The position numbers were made by a program, and so were the translations under genes. A stretch of DNA of 27,878 nt, taken from a virus. This document shows positions 4,334 to 27,288 of the stretch, in pieces (the stretch's first letter is position 1; each line of letters starts with the position of its first letter). The notes beneath the pieces were generated by a model. That model saw only the letters and a list, made by a program, of their open reading frames with translations, was not told where the DNA came from and ran no database searches. The stretch covers positions 1-27,878 of IMG/VR virus record IMGVR_UViG_3300010412_000152; one strand, 5' to 3'.

Positions 4334-4909
4334 TTATAACCATAAGGAGTGGAAATATCTTGCGAATAAATCCATTCCTCTATTAACTCTTTTGTGTAAC
4401 AGTCTTGTTCCAATATCATTATCAATAAAGTTGTTTTTTACTCTGAAAGAAAATATATCTTCAAATTCAACTTGTGAAGATTTATATTCAAAAGCGAAAA
4501 TCATTTCATCAATAGCATATTTCCATATATTCAACCAAATTTCTTCTCTCTTAGCTTCATCAGTTTCCTTTTCAAGAGCATCAAATAAATGTTTTGGTAC
4601 GTCTTTCATAGAAATATATGAATATGATTTCTCATTAATATTTTTACGATATTCTACCAATAGAGCATGAATAACAACAGACAAAGTTCTATCAAGATTA
4701 TAAATCTCTTTTTTCTTCAGTTTAACTTTACAAGTAACTTTTCCATATTGTACCAACTTAAAATATTGTAATACAGGAAAGACAATACGTGTATCAATCC
4801 GTTCAATAAATTGATATATTTTTCCTTCTGGATTTCTTTTCGGTCTATGACCAAAAATAAAATATCGTAAAGATAACCAGGGTAAAACGGGTTTACCTGT
4901 TATTTTCAT
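4334..4909 (-). CDS. Conserved phage protein of unknown function, 191 aa
   Basis: ATG 4909 has AGAAGGA 9 nt upstream; a GTG one codon earlier is also open. The protein is Lys/Tyr/Phe rich, with a central helical block (WLNIWKYAIDEMIFAFEY) and a C-terminal MDLFARYFHSLW ending, both of which I associate with a family of uncharacterised phage proteins. No catalytic motif or membrane segment. It overlaps the preceding gene by 17 nt, and its stop abuts tRNA-Thr(UGU), so the tRNA must be cut from its message. Confidence 0.7.
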   Translation of the reverse strand: MKITGKPVLPWLSLRYFIFGHRPKRNPEGKIYQFIERIDTRIVFPVLQYFKLVQYGKVTCKVKLKKKEIYNLDRTLSVVIHALLVEYRKNINEKSYSYISMKDVPKHLFDALEKETDEAKREEIWLNIWKYAIDEMIFAFEYKSSQVEFEDIFSFRVKNNFIDNDIGTRLLHKRVNRGMDLFARYFHSLWL

Positions 4910-5120
4910 CACTTTTTTTCCTTCTCAAGGATTTAACAATATCACTATCAATAAATTGCCACAGAATATTAGTGGTGATATTGTCATTTTTAATAACACA
5001 TTCATCTAATGGATCTAAATGTTTTTCATTTTTTTTAATGATTGGATCAATAGCATGATATAGTTTTGTAAATGTATCAACATACAACTTATATAAAAGA
5101 TCATCATCACAGTATTTCAT
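4893..5120 (-). CDS. Hypothetical protein, 75 aa
   Basis: Starts 1 nt after the stop of the RlpA-like gene, with a GAGTG ribosome binding site 7 nt upstream. The N-terminus is acidic (MKYCDDD) and the C-terminus basic (VKSLRRKKSDENNR); most of the sequence looks alpha-helical. The 3' end holds the ribosome binding site of the following gene. No motif; function unknown. Confidence 0.6.
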   Translation of the reverse strand: MKYCDDDLLYKLYVDTFTKLYHAIDPIIKKNEKHLDPLDECVIKNDNITTNILWQFIDSDIVKSLRRKKSDENNR

Positions 5121-5121
5121 G

Positions 5122-5445
5122 TCATTTCACTCTTTCAATATGAACGGTGCACACTCCCGAACAACCAATCCTTCTTGCTGCTCCAAGCGATAGATCAAGA
5201 TGACGACCTCTAATGAAAGGTCCGCGATCATTTATTCTCACCACCACTTTTCGCCCACGATACTTAACTAACAATCTTGTTCCAAATGGATAACGCCTAT
5301 GTGCTGCTGTTAATCCATGTGGTCTAAATCTTTCACCACTTGCGGTATGTTTACCTTCCCAGTAAACAGATGCTCTTACAGTTTCAGCATTACTCACACT
5401 TAACATCAAAAATAAAAAAGTTAAAACTAATGGCAATGTTTTCAT
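5122..5445 (-). CDS. RlpA-like secreted double-psi beta-barrel protein
   Basis: Residues 1-20 form a signal peptide (MK, hydrophobic core, SNA cleavage site). The rest is a minimal RlpA-type double-psi beta-barrel: ASVYWEGKHTASGERF, LTAAHRRYPFGTRL, then VVVRINDRGPFIRGRHLDLS. E38, H49 and D73 lie in the conserved positions of the RlpA lytic transglycosylase site. C95 and C99 could form a disulfide in the periplasm. There is no SPOR domain, unlike full-length RlpA. A role in peptidoglycan cleavage at lysis or in cell-wall remodelling is inferred. ATG 5445 has AAAGGAGC 5 nt upstream. Length (107 aa) is short for the family but the barrel is complete. Confidence 0.85.
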   Translation of the reverse strand: MKTLPLVLTFLFLMLSVSNAETVRASVYWEGKHTASGERFRPHGLTAAHRRYPFGTRLLVKYRGRKVVVRINDRGPFIRGRHLDLSLGAARRIGCSGVCTVHIERVK

Positions 5446-5492
5446 ACATGCTCCTTTTCTTATTATTGTGTGATAGCCCCACCATCAGAAAG

Positions 5493-5615
5493 GGTATATG
5501 ATAGTCATATACCGAACAATTCCGCTTCACACACAACCAAACCAAAGTCAGTTTGGCTCCCAACAATCGCGGCGTTTAGCTTCGCCCATTGTCTCATATG
5601 CTCCTAGTGCTAAAC
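5493..5615 (-). other. Multi-hairpin non-coding segment upstream of the RlpA-like gene
   Basis: The 186 nt between tRNA-Lys(CUU) and the RlpA-like gene hold three inverted repeats: a perfect 9-bp hairpin with a 3-nt loop (5493-5513, GGTATATGA/TCATATACC), CCAAAC/GTTTGG (5537-5556) and GTTTAGC/GCTAAAC (5574-5615). The first could be a processing or stabilising hairpin in the RlpA leader. A 30-codon frame at 5505-5597 overlaps the repeats and has only a crowded ribosome binding site. Strand is inferred from the neighbours. Confidence 0.4.
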
Positions 5616-7457: not shown

Positions 7458-7549
7458 TGGTAGGCGTGCTTGGAATCAAACCAAGTCGAGAACGGTAATC
7501 TGCCGCTGAAAGGTTTATAAATCCTCCCTGTGTATCAACACCCACGCCC
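7458..7549 (-). pseudogene. tRNA-like element fused to the 3' end of the GGQ gene
   Basis: The 3' half is a clear tRNA end: T-arm CTTGG-TTTGATT-CCAAG, acceptor strand CACGCCT, A73 and CCA. The matching 5' acceptor strand GGGCGTG (7543-7549) lies 92 nt upstream, inside the last codons of the release-factor-like gene. Between them are a 4-bp D-like hairpin GTGT/ACAC with a 4-nt loop, a weak anticodon-like arm GAGGA-TTTATAA-ACCTT (would be UAU) and a variable-arm-like GCGG/CCGT stem. It may be a divergent class II tRNA or a tRNA whose 5' half was replaced. Confidence 0.45.
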
Positions 7550-7931
7550 GTCTAGCTTCTATCAGTTCACCAAATTTCTTATCCAGTTCACTAGCAGCAA
7601 TTTGATAACCTGACACATGGTCCTTTACTCTGTTATCTGCTATATGATATGTTCTTATAGTTTCATTATTAACTATTCGTTCTGGATTTTCTTTTTGTAT
7701 CTCTTTCTGCACCCAACGTTCTAGTTTTTCACCTAGATTTTGAAATGCATCACTGAAATTTGACTTCCTGTTTCTATGTCTGGTGCATGATGCTTCAAGA
7801 CCTGACGGTAAGTGTCGTATTCGCACACAATTCTGGTTCTTATTTCTATTTTGCCCACCAGGACCTGTTCCGGAGAACCACTGGATATCAAAGTCTTTTT
7901 TGGTATAACAGTATTTTTCTATTTTTTCCAT
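7515..7931 (-). CDS. Class I release factor-like protein (GGQ domain only)
   Basis: The 138-residue protein has GTGPGGQNRNK at 21-31, with the universal GGQ (25-27) that triggers peptidyl-tRNA hydrolysis in the ribosomal A site. A second block at 93-108 (RTYHIADNRVKDHVSG) matches the region after the GGQ domain in bacterial RF1/RF2. The codon-recognition domain and the N-terminal domain are absent, so it is about one third the size of RF1/RF2. That resembles ArfB/PrfH-type rescue factors, although it lacks ArfB's long basic tail. A role in rescuing ribosomes stalled on cleaved or truncated mRNA is inferred. ATG 7931 has AGGT 7-8 nt upstream. Its last 35 nt double as the 5' part of the tRNA-like element. 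Confidence 0.85.
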   Translation of the reverse strand: MEKIEKYCYTKKDFDIQWFSGTGPGGQNRNKNQNCVRIRHLPSGLEASCTRHRNRKSNFSDAFQNLGEKLERWVQKEIQKENPERIVNNETIRTYHIADNRVKDHVSGYQIAASELDKKFGELIEARRAWVLIHREDL

Positions 7932-7948
7932 TTTAGATACCTAAATTT

Positions 7949-8025
7949 TGGTGCCCCTGGTAAGATTCGAACTTACAACATCTGGTTTCTAAGACCAGCG
8001 CCTCTGCCAATTGGACTACAAGGGC
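7949..8025 (-). tRNA. tRNA-Leu(UAG), short variable loop
   Basis: Anticodon arm CTGGT-CTTAGAA-ACCAG gives TAG, which reads CUA leucine codons. Acceptor GCCCTTG/CAGGGGC, T-arm GTAAG-TTCGAAT-CTTAC, A73, encoded CCA. The variable loop is only 5 nt (ATGTT), whereas bacterial leucine tRNAs are class II. Confidence 0.9.
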
Positions 8026-8026
8026 A

Positions 8027-8776
8027 TTATATTGGTAAAACACTTCTCGTTGATTTTAATCTTTCGTTGGCTATTTTAAAATAGTTTTCATCAATTTCAT
8101 AACCAACAAAATTTCTATTAAATCTGAATGCTGCAACACCAGTTGTTCCTGATCCCATCGTCAAATCTAATATCCAATTACCTTCATTAGAATAAGTTTT
8201 AATAAAATAGGCCATCATTTCAACAGGTTTTTGTGTTGGGTGTAATCCTTTTTCTTGAGAGAAAAATTGTATTGATAATGGATATCTTTCCCCATTTGGA
8301 TTATCTCTATGCATAGAATGTAACTGACCGTAAACTTCTCCAATTTTTTTATTACCTTTTGACTTAAATCTAAAATACGGTGTTGATTTCCAATTTTGTG
8401 GATTATATGTTGGTTTCTTTTGATAGAAAACCAAAACATTCTCATGATTCTTCATAGGCATTGAATTAGCCAACATTGGATTAGTGCCTTGTGGTTTTGC
8501 CCATATCCACTCATAACGGAAATCGTTTATATTTGAACCTATTAATTTTGTAGTAAAAGGTTGTGATGCTGTAAAAACCATAGCAGCATCTTCTTTTACT
8601 ACTCTATATAGTTTTTCCCACATTAAATCTAGATCAATTACAGAATCCCAGGCGCAAGCAGTAGTTCCATATGGCAAATCTGTTAAAACCATATCAATAG
8701 ATTTGTCTGCTAATTCATCAATTAATTCCAAGCAATTGCCTAATTTTATATTTGTCAAGGGTTGTGACACACTCAT
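8027..8776 (-). CDS. DNA methyltransferase, beta-class N6-adenine type
   Basis: The 249-residue protein has motif IV DLPYG at 33-37 near the N-terminus and the SAM-binding motif I DLTMGSGTTG at 204-213 near the C-terminus, preceded by HPTQKP at 179-184. This IV-TRD-I order is that of beta-class methyltransferases. D-x-P-Y favours N6-adenine over N4-cytosine. The target-recognition region is about 80-178; the site is not predictable from sequence. ATG 8776 has GGA 7 nt upstream and overlaps the upstream nuclease-like gene by 59 nt, so the two are tightly coupled. It could protect phage DNA from host restriction or be the modification half of a phage restriction-modification pair. The stop is 1 nt from tRNA-Leu(UAG). 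Confidence 0.9.
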   Translation of the reverse strand: MSVSQPLTNIKLGNCLELIDELADKSIDMVLTDLPYGTTACAWDSVIDLDLMWEKLYRVVKEDAAMVFTASQPFTTKLIGSNINDFRYEWIWAKPQGTNPMLANSMPMKNHENVLVFYQKKPTYNPQNWKSTPYFRFKSKGNKKIGEVYGQLHSMHRDNPNGERYPLSIQFFSQEKGLHPTQKPVEMMAYFIKTYSNEGNWILDLTMGSGTTGVAAFRFNRNFVGYEIDENYFKIANERLKSTRSVLPI

Positions 8777-9350
8777 AACTTTCCAATACCTTTTTCAATT
8801 CTTTTGGTTTGATTGATAACATAAAATCATCATTTTCACCACTTTTACCGCCTTGCTGATATTTAAAAACACTATCATCAATCATTTTTGATACTGTTTC
8901 TTTGTTATAAACATAGTTATATTTCGTGTGATTATTAAAATAATCAACCAACGTGATTGTCAGTATTTGCCAATCCTTTTTCAAAGCAATATGATTAATC
9001 ATCCAAGAACTGTTTTTTTCTGGTTTAAGTAGAGAAAATTTTGTTTCATTTTTAATGTAAATATGCTCTTTATCATCATAATTTGATAAATCTAAAATAA
9101 AATCATGACCAGCATTATCTCTATCTAAAGAATAGAAATTGGCTTTTGTATATAACTTCCTTTGTATAAATTCACCAACAGTCCCTTTTTGACCTGGATT
9201 CAAATAATAATAACCTTCATATGGTGTATTTAAAAATGGATCATCCTTAATCAAAGATTGAATATGATTACTAATTTCAAATTCTTCAATTTCATCAATT
9301 TCATTTTGAGAAATATCATTAGTATCCATTTTAAAAAATTTCATTAGCAT
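8718..9350 (-). CDS. Putative PD-(D/E)XK restriction endonuclease partner
   Basis: The 210-residue protein shows a plausible PD-(D/E)XK core: GEF with E60 in a helix, AGHDFILDL with D83, then strand HIYIKNETKFS with E102-x-K104, at the spacing usual for type II restriction enzymes. The N-terminus (8-30) is very acidic. No other nuclease motif is present. It overlaps the methyltransferase gene by 59 nt, with the nuclease first, which supports a restriction-modification reading. ATG 9350 has AAGGA 8 nt upstream; the frame also reaches TTG 9374 but that precedes the ribosome binding site. If not a nuclease, it could be a methyltransferase-associated specificity factor. Confidence 0.6.
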   Translation of the reverse strand: MLMKFFKMDTNDISQNEIDEIEEFEISNHIQSLIKDDPFLNTPYEGYYYLNPGQKGTVGEFIQRKLYTKANFYSLDRDNAGHDFILDLSNYDDKEHIYIKNETKFSLLKPEKNSSWMINHIALKKDWQILTITLVDYFNNHTKYNYVYNKETVSKMIDDSVFKYQQGGKSGENDDFMLSIKPKELKKVLESYECVTTLDKYKIRQLLGIN

Positions 9351-9366
9351 AATAAACTTCCTTAAT

Positions 9367-9443
9367 TGGTGCAAGTGCCATGGAATCGAACCAGGTTCTT
9401 CGGTTCTTCAGACCGACGCAATCACCAGACTTGCTCCACTTGC
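9367..9443 (-). tRNA. tRNA-Phe(GAA)
   Basis: Anticodon arm TCGGT-CTGAAGA-ACCGA gives GAA. Acceptor GCAAGTG/CACTTGC perfect, T-loop TTCGATT, A73, encoded CCA. Confidence 0.95.
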
Positions 9444-10772: not shown

Positions 10773-12032
10773 TTAATGTGCTTTTAAAAGCACACAGTCC
10801 TTGTTGATCTTACCATTCACAGGCGCATCCTTGCCGCGAATGTTACTCAAAAACTTTCGGTCAGATACTTTACCACCTTTCATAAAGTCAGCAAGTTGAC
10901 TTTCTGGCTTACGCAAGGTCTTACCAGTGCTGGTCTTGGGGTCCCAGCCAGCAATATAGGTGCCCTTGATAGTCAGTTCCTTGTCAAGGTCAGACGCATT
11001 ATAAACATACAGTTTGCGCGTCTTATTGTTGAATACAAACACAGATTTGGCACCGACAATCTTTTCGGGCTTGATAGAAGTCAGTTTGTATTCATCACTA
11101 TACTGCAAATACTTGACCTTTGCAGCAAGTTGCATAGGAGTCTTAGACTTGCGAACACGGACCTTACGCGCCTTCTGCTTGAGAAGTTTGTATGCCTCAA
11201 GATCAGTAACAGTCTTTTCATACCAAGCCAGAATACGTTTTAGTTCAGGCTTCTTATAACGCATATAACCCTCAAACAACTGTGGGTCCTTCTTGAGGGC
11301 ACTCGCGCTTTTCAGCGTATTGATTTCCTCCAGTCGCTTTGAATAAACATCAATCATGTGGTCAACATAAGTAGCAGGCACATTATTTTTCACCAGCCAC
11401 TTATAGACATCCTCTTGATCATCTTCCAGACCTTGAATGTCGCCCATTATTTCATGTTGCTTTTCTCGCATCGCTTCCTGAATAGTAGGCTTTGCTGCTT
11501 CCTGTTTTAGTTCCTTCTTTTCTTCAACCAGCTTAGAACCAATTTCCACAAGGCCTCGCACCTTGTTATCAAAGTATTTTTTTGACTCTGGGTTTACAGC
11601 ACCAGTGGAAAACAGGTATGCGATAGATAGTGTAGGGAACGAAAGTTGGTGCTCTTTCAACTTTTTCAGGTTCTTTACATCATCTTTCGTAAAGCCATTT
11701 TTCAGAACATAGTCATAGAAAATGGGCAGAAGATCAGCACGATTGATCTTGCCCTCTTTTTCTTCCTCCCACAATGCATTGGTGCAGTTCCACCATTGCA
11801 TACGCAACGTATCTTCCTTGAGTTGCTCCCACTTGATTTCTGGGCTGACAACTTTCAAACCGCGACGACGGTCTTTAGTGACCTTGAATTTTACAGTAGG
11901 CTCATAAACCTTCTTTACTTTTTGTTGTGCATCAACATTATCGGTAGAAAACGATTTATTAGTTGAAAGGACTGGATTACGGCGAGCGTGCCGCGGTGTC
12001 ATTCGTTTTGCTCGTTTCGTATGCTTTGCCAT
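10773..12032 (-). CDS. Large basic conserved phage protein, about 419 aa
   Basis: The N-terminal 50 residues are strongly basic (MAKHTKRAKRMTPRHARRNP), followed by a long helical, charged middle (about 90-290, with probable coiled coil) and a C-terminal beta-rich part. The last 60 residues (TLRKPESQLADFMKGGKV; VNGKINKDCVLLK) look like a conserved tail I associate with other large phages, role unknown. Start: ATG 12032 has GGA 10 nt upstream; ATG 12047 adds five residues and overlaps the previous gene by 49 nt. The gene is visibly richer in G+C than its surroundings. A virion-internal or nucleic-acid-binding role would fit the basic N-terminus but is unproven. Confidence 0.7.
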   Translation of the reverse strand: MAKHTKRAKRMTPRHARRNPVLSTNKSFSTDNVDAQQKVKKVYEPTVKFKVTKDRRRGLKVVSPEIKWEQLKEDTLRMQWWNCTNALWEEEKEGKINRADLLPIFYDYVLKNGFTKDDVKNLKKLKEHQLSFPTLSIAYLFSTGAVNPESKKYFDNKVRGLVEIGSKLVEEKKELKQEAAKPTIQEAMREKQHEIMGDIQGLEDDQEDVYKWLVKNNVPATYVDHMIDVYSKRLEEINTLKSASALKKDPQLFEGYMRYKKPELKRILAWYEKTVTDLEAYKLLKQKARKVRVRKSKTPMQLAAKVKYLQYSDEYKLTSIKPEKIVGAKSVFVFNNKTRKLYVYNASDLDKELTIKGTYIAGWDPKTSTGKTLRKPESQLADFMKGGKVSDRKFLSNIRGKDAPVNGKINKDCVLLKAH

Positions 12033-12241
12033 TTTCGCTTTGTCCATTGATCACATGTGACTTTAGGGGCACTCTCGTTTCGGATAACATCAGTGCAATG
12101 CCATCCATCGTTCGGGTCTAATCGTATTGCTGGATCGGTTGCCCTTTCGTATACCATCATAAACAGTAACACAATGACAACGAAAAGCACAATCACCAAA
12201 TTCATCGGTGTGCGCTTATATGAGGGTTGCCATTGTGCCAT
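11999..12241 (-). CDS. Single-pass membrane protein, 80 aa, possibly leaderless
   Basis: Residues 13-31 (MNLVIVLFVVIVLLFMMVY) are a transmembrane helix. The N-terminus is short and basic (in), and the C-terminal 48 residues are charged and contain two Cys, suggesting an external domain. The consensus promoter at 12253-12281 places the start only about 5 nt before ATG 12241 and no ribosome binding site is visible, so the message is nearly leaderless. ATG 12205 (residue 13) would give a longer leader but also lacks a site. Overlaps the next gene by 34 nt. Confidence 0.65.
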   Translation of the reverse strand: MAQWQPSYKRTPMNLVIVLFVVIVLLFMMVYERATDPAIRLDPNDGWHCTDVIRNESAPKVTCDQWTKRKWQSIRNEQNE

Positions 12242-25306: not shown

Positions 25307-26542
25307 TTATTTATCTTCATTCCCCAATTGATCTATTCTCATTTTTGGAAAATAGCGACAGAATAATGTGTCACCTTTTGATATATTTCTCATTACCGAG
25401 ACTTTCCGTTTGATTTCATCATAGAAATTCCATGCTAATGGAACAAATAATATATTATCATTCTCATATTCATATAATACAGATGAAGCATAGATTGGAA
25501 TGCTAGACCCTGGTGTGAATCTATTTTGTTTGAGAGGATTGTCATCAATGATGAAATCAAGATCAAGGCCAGTAAAGTTTAATACAGTCATTCCCTTTGC
25601 TGGTGCACCATATCCTACCAGTTTATATCCTTCATACTTATCTCTATTAACTGTATAGAGTAAGTTGTTTTTTATTCTGTGTGTGTTTTCAGCAAACCAA
25701 ACATAAACACCTGGATTATATAAATCTGCTTCAGCACTCTTACGCATATCCACACTTAAGTCTTTTAGTTGTCCTTCTTTTCTTACTTCAAAAATGAAAC
25801 TGGTACCATGAATTGTGGCAAGATCAACATTTGTTAATACCATTCCTGCACGTTCACACAACTTTTCCATTGAGTTAACACAGAAAAAAGAAATGTGTTC
25901 GTGATAAATGGTATCAAATTCACCATTCCTAATCATGTTTGCTTGTGATGTTTGAATAAATAGTTTTCCATCATCAGGCATAATCTTTTTTGCTGTCAAT
26001 AGAAAATCAAGTGGATTAGATGTATGAGCAAATACATTTTGTGCCACTATAATAGATGGTTGAACCGTGAACTTTTTTGTAAAATCATCATTGAAATAAT
26101 CACAAAATACATTATGGTTTTTTGATGATAGTTCAAGCAAGTTTTTAGCTGGATCAACACCAAATGTGGCATAACCCAACTCTTTAAAATAATCAAGTTG
26201 TGTTCCATCATTACAACCAACATCTAAAACAGATTTCTGATCCATTTTATTTCTAAGATCAACATAACCAGCAAACTCTTTGAAATGTTCGCGACCTGTT
26301 TGTGTTGTTCCACTAACATAAAGATAATCCTCAAACATAAGTTTGGGATCAACAGTGTGTGTCAGTTGAACATGCCAACAATCATAACACACATTGATTG
26401 CCAGAGGATATTCCTCTTGCACTTGTTCTTTCGTTAGTTTGTATGAGTTAGCAAGCGGCTGCTTGCCCAAGTCCATTACTGGATGCAAGTTTTCTTTACC
26501 ACAAGCAACACATTCATTTAGTTGCGTATAATTTTGTGTCAT
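25307..26542 (-). CDS. NDP-sugar C-methyltransferase-like protein
   Basis: The 411-residue protein has the three-part layout of TylCIII-type sugar C-methyltransferases. An N-terminal zinc domain has CxxC pairs at C11/C14 and C52/C55. A SAM-binding core follows, with VLDVGCNDG at 105-113. A C-terminal part has GYGAPAKGMTVLN and DFIIDDNP. Relatives methylate the sugar ring carbon of dTDP- or other NDP-sugars. A role in building a modified sugar for a glycan on the virion, on host surface, or on DNA is inferred. ATG 26542 overlaps the previous gene by 4 nt. There is a 3-nt gap between its stop and the thyX-operon promoter. Confidence 0.85.
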   Translation of the reverse strand: MTQNYTQLNECVACGKENLHPVMDLGKQPLANSYKLTKEQVQEEYPLAINVCYDCWHVQLTHTVDPKLMFEDYLYVSGTTQTGREHFKEFAGYVDLRNKMDQKSVLDVGCNDGTQLDYFKELGYATFGVDPAKNLLELSSKNHNVFCDYFNDDFTKKFTVQPSIIVAQNVFAHTSNPLDFLLTAKKIMPDDGKLFIQTSQANMIRNGEFDTIYHEHISFFCVNSMEKLCERAGMVLTNVDLATIHGTSFIFEVRKEGQLKDLSVDMRKSAEADLYNPGVYVWFAENTHRIKNNLLYTVNRDKYEGYKLVGYGAPAKGMTVLNFTGLDLDFIIDDNPLKQNRFTPGSSIPIYASSVLYEYENDNILFVPLAWNFYDEIKRKVSVMRNISKGDTLFCRYFPKMRIDQLGNEDK

Positions 26543-27288
26543 TTATAAGAATACTCCATTTTCATATCTATCAATGGATCCTTTTCAAATATAATCATGC
26601 TATCATAAAAATGTATTGAAGATAATCCTTTTATAAAAAGATTTAGATTTTGCAATTCATGAATTTTATTATTATCTTTTGCCTGTATTGTGGTCATTTT
26701 ATTTGTCGTCGTATCAAAAGACAATAAGCCAGAATCGGTATGATTTGTTTCATTTATAATCCATTGCTCATTTAATAAATCAACAAATTGTTTGCTATAT
26801 TCTGTAAATGCTTTTGGATTACCATATGACATACCATATGGTTCTTTCATATAACTGGTATGAGTATCTTCAACAATGGCAAATCCTCCTTCTGTGATAT
26901 GAGGAAAAACTTTTTGTAATGTGATTATTTGTTGGTGCATATAATGCCCACCATCATCAATGAAAATATCAATAGGTCCTATTTTAGGTAATACTTGATC
27001 CCAAAATTCTGGATTTCCTTGATCTCCAATGAAAATTTCAACATTACCTTGATCAAAAGTCAAATTACCACTACGTTGTTTATCAATATCTATACCAAAA
27101 ATTTTACTATCTTTAGTGAAGTATTTGCTCCACATATCGATAGAACCTCCATCAGCCACACCCACTTCAAGTAATGTAATGTTTTTATCTTTAAATTTGC
27201 TCATATATCGGTCATATACAGGAAAATAACGACTCCACTTGTCGGCTTTTTTATTTACTGTTTTGAAAATTTTTAACAATTCGCTCAT
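26539..27288 (-). CDS. SAM-dependent sugar O-methyltransferase (CmcI/MycE-like)
   Basis: The 249-residue protein has SAM motif LLEVGVADGGS at 39-49, an acidic IDIDK end of strand 2, and IDIFIDDGGHYMHQQ at 106-120, whose DDGGH is the metal/catalytic signature of the MycE/CmcI family (rhamnosyl, mycinosyl and cephalosporin-type O-methyltransferases). Substrate: likely an NDP-sugar or a glycosylated acceptor made by its neighbours. ATGA overlaps on both sides place it in one operon with the epimerase and the C-methyltransferase. Confidence 0.83.
   Translation of the reverse strand: MSELLKIFKTVNKKADKWSRYFPVYDRYMSKFKDKNITLLEVGVADGGSIDMWSKYFTKDSKIFGIDIDKQRSGNLTFDQGNVEIFIGDQGNPEFWDQVLPKIGPIDIFIDDGGHYMHQQIITLQKVFPHITEGGFAIVEDTHTSYMKEPYGMSYGNPKAFTEYSKQFVDLLNEQWIINETNHTDSGLLSFDTTTNKMTTIQAKDNNKIHELQNLNLFIKGLSSIHFYDSMIIFEKDPLIDMKMEYSYK

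Follow-up and report, generated by a model that had tools for sequence, protein, structure and literature searches.

A nuclease-methyltransferase gene pair in a marine T4-like phage as a probable Type II-like restriction-modification module

The IMG/VR virus fragment under study comprises 27,878 bases (the "window", i.e., the whole stretch of DNA that was analysed); its annotated genes, like its 21 tRNA genes, are all located on the minus strand. Its source is a marine T4-like phage: the DNA polymerase shares approximately 50% identity with its nearest matches, which belong to Synechococcus T4-like phages, and genes for UvsX and a DnaB-like helicase are also present. The tRNA genes are interspersed with small ORFs between positions 1821 and 14527, and among them, between tRNA-Phe and tRNA-Leu, lie the genes for a candidate nuclease and a DNA methyltransferase (MTase). 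As proposed in a first-pass annotation of this DNA, the minus strand does contain both ORFs, which overlap by 59 nt. The locus is organized as follows:

7949..8025, minus strand: flanking tRNA-Leu(tag), with a TCGA site inside at 7967
8027..8776, minus strand: beta-class N6/N4 DNA methyltransferase, 249 aa, predicted cognate modification enzyme (PF01555, PADLOC MTase_II)
8138..8167, minus strand: DLTMGSGTTG, SAM-binding motif I of the methyltransferase, residues 204-213
8666..8680, minus strand: DLPYG, catalytic motif IV of the methyltransferase, residues 33-37
8718..8776, minus strand: overlap of the nuclease and methyltransferase genes, 59 nt
8718..9350, minus strand: predicted PD-(D/E)XK nuclease, candidate Type II restriction endonuclease, 210 aa (phrog_6927; T4-GC_685 family of cyanophages)
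9039..9047, minus strand: E102-T-K104, predicted (D/E)XK motif, E and K invariant
9102..9104, minus strand: D83 of GHD, predicted metal ligand, invariant
9171..9173, minus strand: E60 of the QKGxxGE helix, invariant
9367..9443, minus strand: flanking tRNA-Phe(gaa), with a TCGA site inside at 9386

The ATG at 9350 is preferred as the nuclease start, since a TTG start at 9374 would enter the tRNA-Phe gene. The sequence GGAAAG is found immediately 5' of the MTase ATG, and further in-frame MTase starts occur 6 nt (GTG) and 18 nt (TTG) downstream of this ATG. In other pairs of this kind the two genes overlap by 7, 34 or 61 nt, counted from the first possible starts. The tRNA-rich region also encodes a 138-aa RF-1-domain protein with a GGQ motif (7515-7931, minus strand; PF00472, 5.9e-19), which may be a release factor or ArfB-like, and a second methyltransferase-like protein is encoded at 26539-27288 on the minus strand (phrog_21658, 1.9e-22).

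The upstream protein matches phrog_6927, a family of unknown function (4.8e-15), and yields no significant match in Pfam, NCBIfam, PADLOC or PDB sequence searches; five of its relatives match the PADLOC Type II endonuclease model PDLC03515 (REase_II) at 1e-4 to 2.5e-12, and the window protein does not. The T4-GC_685/phrog_6927 proteins form one family with it, including P-SSM7_054 and S-ShM2_059, which bear T4-GC 685, and a distant member in S-BM3 carries the annotation "restriction endonuclease"; the family records give no specificity, MTase linkage or evidence of site loss. Homologues were identified by tblastn in P-SSM7, S-SSM4, S-SSM6b, ACG-2014f and one marine single-cell virus, and a profile scan of IMG/VR returned 130 relatives, 80 of which were retained. 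No bacterial source of the nuclease has been identified, since it was not found in pattern scans of genome contigs (two) or plasmids, which were limited searches.

The first-pass annotation had suspected a PD-(D/E)XK core in this protein, to be abandoned if E102 and K104 were not conserved in homologues or if structure prediction gave no restriction-endonuclease fold. The suspicion has held on both counts. E60, D83, E102 and K104 do not vary across 34 non-redundant homologues, and QKGxxGE, GHD and ExKF were observed in 86 of the 86 loci examined. AlphaFold (AF2) models of the window nuclease and of a paired relative (pLDDT 83 and 91, respectively) match NhoI, I-Ssp6803I, Eco15I and SPARDA nuclease subunits best among PDB structures in Foldseek, with PvuII lower down; probabilities are close to 1 for the best matches, yet the TM-scores are modest (approximately 0.35-0.5). 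Judged by the modelled core fold together with the D and (D/E)XK catalytic residues, the protein meets the definition of the PD-(D/E)XK superfamily.

The downstream protein matches PF01555 (1.2e-29) and PADLOC MTase_II (5.7e-71), and its motif IV precedes motif I, the order of the beta class. By family and motif order it qualifies as a beta-class amino (N6A/N4C) MTase, with DLPY in place of DPPY. The earlier designation as a beta-class adenine MTase can thus be kept for the class and not for the base, because the sequence does not distinguish adenine from cytosine-N4 methylation. The enzyme is 60-69% identical to the MTases of other nuclease-MTase pairs, and the target-recognition region is conserved.

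Linkage of the two genes is observed from either side. Among 86 nuclease loci, the MTase lies directly downstream in 47 and does not in 32, and the remaining 7 end too early to tell; conversely, this nuclease is found directly upstream of 58 of the 80 closest MTases. A linked candidate endonuclease, regarded in the first-pass annotation as exceptional, is therefore common in this MTase family. Most of the other MTase loci harbour an unrelated candidate nuclease of approximately 195 aa upstream ("type B", HKxGxD...ISxKxG), e.g., L113, L129, L145, L147, L149, L153, L161, L169, L170 and L172; for the type-B members searched, Pfam, PADLOC and PDB gave nothing convincing. A third type of partner, the HNH proteins upstream of the MTase in L174-176, was considered and rejected, because a type-B nuclease is present there too, with the HNH gene lying between it and the MTase. 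The association of one MTase family with different candidate nucleases gives the locus the appearance of a restriction-modification (R-M) module, and with the 59-nt overlap and the conserved linkage the Type II hallmark of separate, linked endonuclease and MTase genes is met. In a protein tree of the nuclease, lineages without an MTase occur in several separate places among the paired ones.

These nuclease-only lineages provide the main evidence on function. In seven such genomes or contigs taken together, TCGA was observed 3 times against 794 expected occurrences, compared with 636 observed and 885 expected in 12 nuclease-free cyanophage controls (counts are given below as observed/expected). 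S-SSM4 contains none (0/330), G005 retains 3/261, and contigs G004 and G006-G009 have none at all. TCGA shows the largest contrast among 136 tetramers (log ratio -4.96), AGCC being next at -0.90, and none of the 5- and 6-mers discriminates between nuclease-only phages and controls to the extent that TCGA does. The pattern was first noticed in a scan of four genomes and in per-locus counts, and the seven genomes were pooled afterwards; the pool excludes ACG-2014f and L087, two nuclease-only misfits, as well as G002 and G003, which are close kin of G005 and likewise free of TCGA. Since many IMG/VR contigs are interrelated, their counts do not represent independent events. TCGA counts are normal in the cultured phages most closely related to G005, G007 and G008 (S-WAM2, 62/69; S-RIM44, 67/80; Sf-CH1b, 59/75). 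Even the T-loops of all tRNAs found in the TCGA-free nuclease-only genomes read TTCAA instead of TTCGA. The paired phage P-SSM7 tolerates TCGA (259/340), which is consistent with protection by its MTase and does not prove it. TCGA is thus strongly indicated as the site of the main branch of the family, although cutting is inferred and biochemical data are lacking. A literature search on R-M in cyanophages and on TCGA avoidance found nothing specific.

Several cases do not fit. ACG-2014f carries the nuclease without an MTase, yet has normal TCGA counts (335/415), and the L087 contig, also with the nuclease alone, retains 25/51; L087 lacks GGCC (0/45), as does the nuclease-free S-CAM7 (0/56). 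Some paired contigs are TCGA-poor as well (G011, 7/64; G012, 19/101; G013, 21/103). ACG-2014d is the reverse case, free of TCGA without a nuclease of this family. Type-B nuclease-only genomes, considered as a second test of TCGA loss, gave no decisive answer: on the 464-kb contig L277, TCGA stands at 107/270 in the 200 kb counted. As separate observations, in L031 a different methyltransferase directly follows the nuclease (4521-5501) and the contig is still TCGA-poor (4/53), and S-SSM4 is also devoid of TTTAAA (0/54) and AGTACT (0/50), unlike its relatives.

A divergent branch of the nuclease (approximately 36% identity, no adjoining MTase), represented by S-ShM2, S-RIM14, S-SSM2 and S-BM3, goes with another tetramer. 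TTAA is missing from S-ShM2, S-RIM14 and S-SSM2 (0/289 combined), in which TCGA is normal, and reaches 12/83 in S-BM3, which has the same nuclease as the S-ShM2 branch; in all 19 other cyanophages counted TTAA is normal (approximately 0.78-1.07). The loss was found by asking what S-ShM2 lacks and was then checked in relatives. It amounts to one or two lineages only, as S-ShM2, S-RIM14 and S-SSM2 are one species. Loss of TCGA in one branch and of TTAA in another suggests a family of Type II-like enzymes that cut 4-bp palindromes, whose specificity can shift over this degree of sequence divergence.

Outside its tRNA genes, the window is depleted in TCGA more than in any other tetramer (9/44); AGCT (13/56) and CCGG (5/18) come next. 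Eighteen of the 27 TCGA sites fall within tRNA genes, 17 of the 21 tRNAs having a TTCGA T-loop. This pattern, weaker than in nuclease-only phages, is consistent with an MTase that shields sites the phage could lose only with difficulty. The window nuclease shares no more than about 29-36% identity with the branch in which the link with TCGA was measured, and both its specificity and its activity are inferred; with this reservation, we favour TCGA as the site of the window pair by a modest degree. It remains possible, if less likely, that the two genes form an R-M pair and the nuclease reads AGCT or some other palindrome: the protein is divergent, the TTAA branch demonstrates that specificity can shift, and AGCT is nearly as depleted as TCGA. 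This tetramer is, however, depleted in most cyanophages irrespective of the nuclease, and the similarity of the window MTase places it with pairs whose nuclease-only relatives avoid TCGA.

Taken together, we assign a probability of about 0.82 to the reading that the overlapping genes encode a phage-borne Type II-like R-M pair. Besides the catalytic residues, the predicted fold and the conserved linkage, the reading is supported by the observation that phages lacking the MTase have also lost one particular tetramer, which a genuine pair would lead one to expect; cutting, methylation, the methylated base and the biological use are inferred, and there are no biochemical data. According to the proposed mechanism, the upstream PD-(D/E)XK endonuclease would cut a 4-bp palindrome, TCGA in the main branch, and the downstream beta-class MTase would mark the same site, such that phage DNA is spared. 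During infection the nuclease might then attack unmarked DNA, i.e., the host chromosome and/or co-infecting phages, and without the MTase it could presumably be kept only by purging the site from the phage's own genome, tRNA T-loops included.

A different origin of the site loss must be weighed: a TCGA-cutting restriction system of the host might have caused it, the phage nuclease serving in recombination or DNA degradation and the MTase being an anti-restriction orphan. Phages do avoid host restriction sites, and most cyanophages lack CCGG whether or not they carry this nuclease. Moreover, ACG-2014d is free of TCGA (0/310) and has no nuclease of this family. In this phage (L305, 9562-10158) another protein, 198 aa long and weakly matching PvuII (E 0.011), occupies the slot that holds the nuclease in S-SSM4; in both phages the slot lies behind the same helicase gene, and in S-ShM2 it is filled by the distant nuclease branch. 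We nevertheless consider host restriction an improbable cause, since depletion of TCGA follows the nuclease across lineages while the nearest nuclease-free relatives are normal, and since the divergent branch lost TTAA instead. The host strain does not readily account for the loss either: S-SSM6b, isolated on WH8109, carries the S-SSM4 nuclease, but Syn19 and S-SSM7 from the same strain keep normal TCGA (74/98 and 53/61).

Two further functions of the nuclease appear very unlikely. A homing endonuclease that resides by chance among tRNA genes beside an orphan MTase is suggested by the match to I-Ssp6803I, one of the best structural matches, and by the position of the pair between tRNA genes. 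Such enzymes are recognized by an intron or intein location or a long unique site. Here the gene is free-standing, overlaps the MTase gene and occurs in ordinary gene clusters of the relatives examined; the MTase link is kept in more than half of the loci, and long recognition sites would not demand the genome-wide loss of a 4-mer. A modification-dependent enzyme, directed against DNA that rivals or hosts have methylated, would agree with the top structural matches, the m5C-dependent NhoI and Eco15I (PMC11347163), but the adjoining MTase of the same phage and the near-complete removal of TCGA or TTAA are better explained by methylation-sensitive cutting, and the lack of cytosine in TTAA speaks against m5C dependence in that branch.

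Returning to the R-M pair, several known systems are comparable. The NhoI/BisI family, whose BisI enzymes require methylated GCNGC (PMC11347163), provides the closest solved fold by Foldseek and shares only 10-15% identity with the window nuclease. TaqI resembles the window pair in that TCGA is the predicted recognition sequence of the latter; M.TaqI is a gamma-class enzyme, unlike the beta-class window MTase. Chloroviruses and Marseilleviridae are lytic viruses that employ an endonuclease and an MTase to attack host or rival DNA and spare their own (PMC7253447); they infect eukaryotes, and the marseillevirus site is GATC. By analogy with them, use of the phage pair for host DNA breakdown or exclusion of rivals may be inferred. 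Within T4-like cyanophages, ACG-2014j (L303, 3901-5179), Syn19 and Syn2 carry pairs annotated as R.RsaI-like endonuclease and adenine methylase, in which a small nuclease gene likewise overlaps a PF01555 MTase gene. The present nuclease profile does not, however, pick up the RsaI-like protein, whose MTase is only distantly related. GTAC is absent from S-RIM44 (L301, 0/82) and S-SM1 (L290, 0/70), in which tblastn found no RsaI-like protein.

Restriction is normally directed against phages, whereas the lytic phages described here appear to wield it. We regard it as reasonably probable that lytic marine phages use fast-evolving, interchangeable Type II endonucleases as weapons, and that MTase-free lineages immunise themselves by clearing a 180-kb genome of every copy of the target tetramer, down to the change from TTCGA to TTCAA in the T-loops, each genome thereby recording the specificity of its own enzyme. 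Nuclease-only relatives would then be a record of the target site that can be read without an experiment. This suggests a general route to the sites of uncharacterised phage nucleases, provides specific and cheap predictions (TCGA for one nuclease branch and TTAA for a second) and is relevant to the question of how cyanophages, lacking T4-style base modification, break down host DNA or keep out competitors.

The P-SSM7 pair is preceded by the gene of a ParB-like protein; the 424-aa window ORF at 10773-12047, considered as its counterpart, was discarded because the two show no similarity. A GxxDGxHR-motif protein is encoded just upstream of the pair in L021 (1083-2902), L024 (1680-2873), L068 and L101; it looks ParB-like by eye and has no Pfam hit. 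In P-SSM7 a 2OG-Fe(II) oxygenase is also encoded just upstream of the nuclease-MTase pair.
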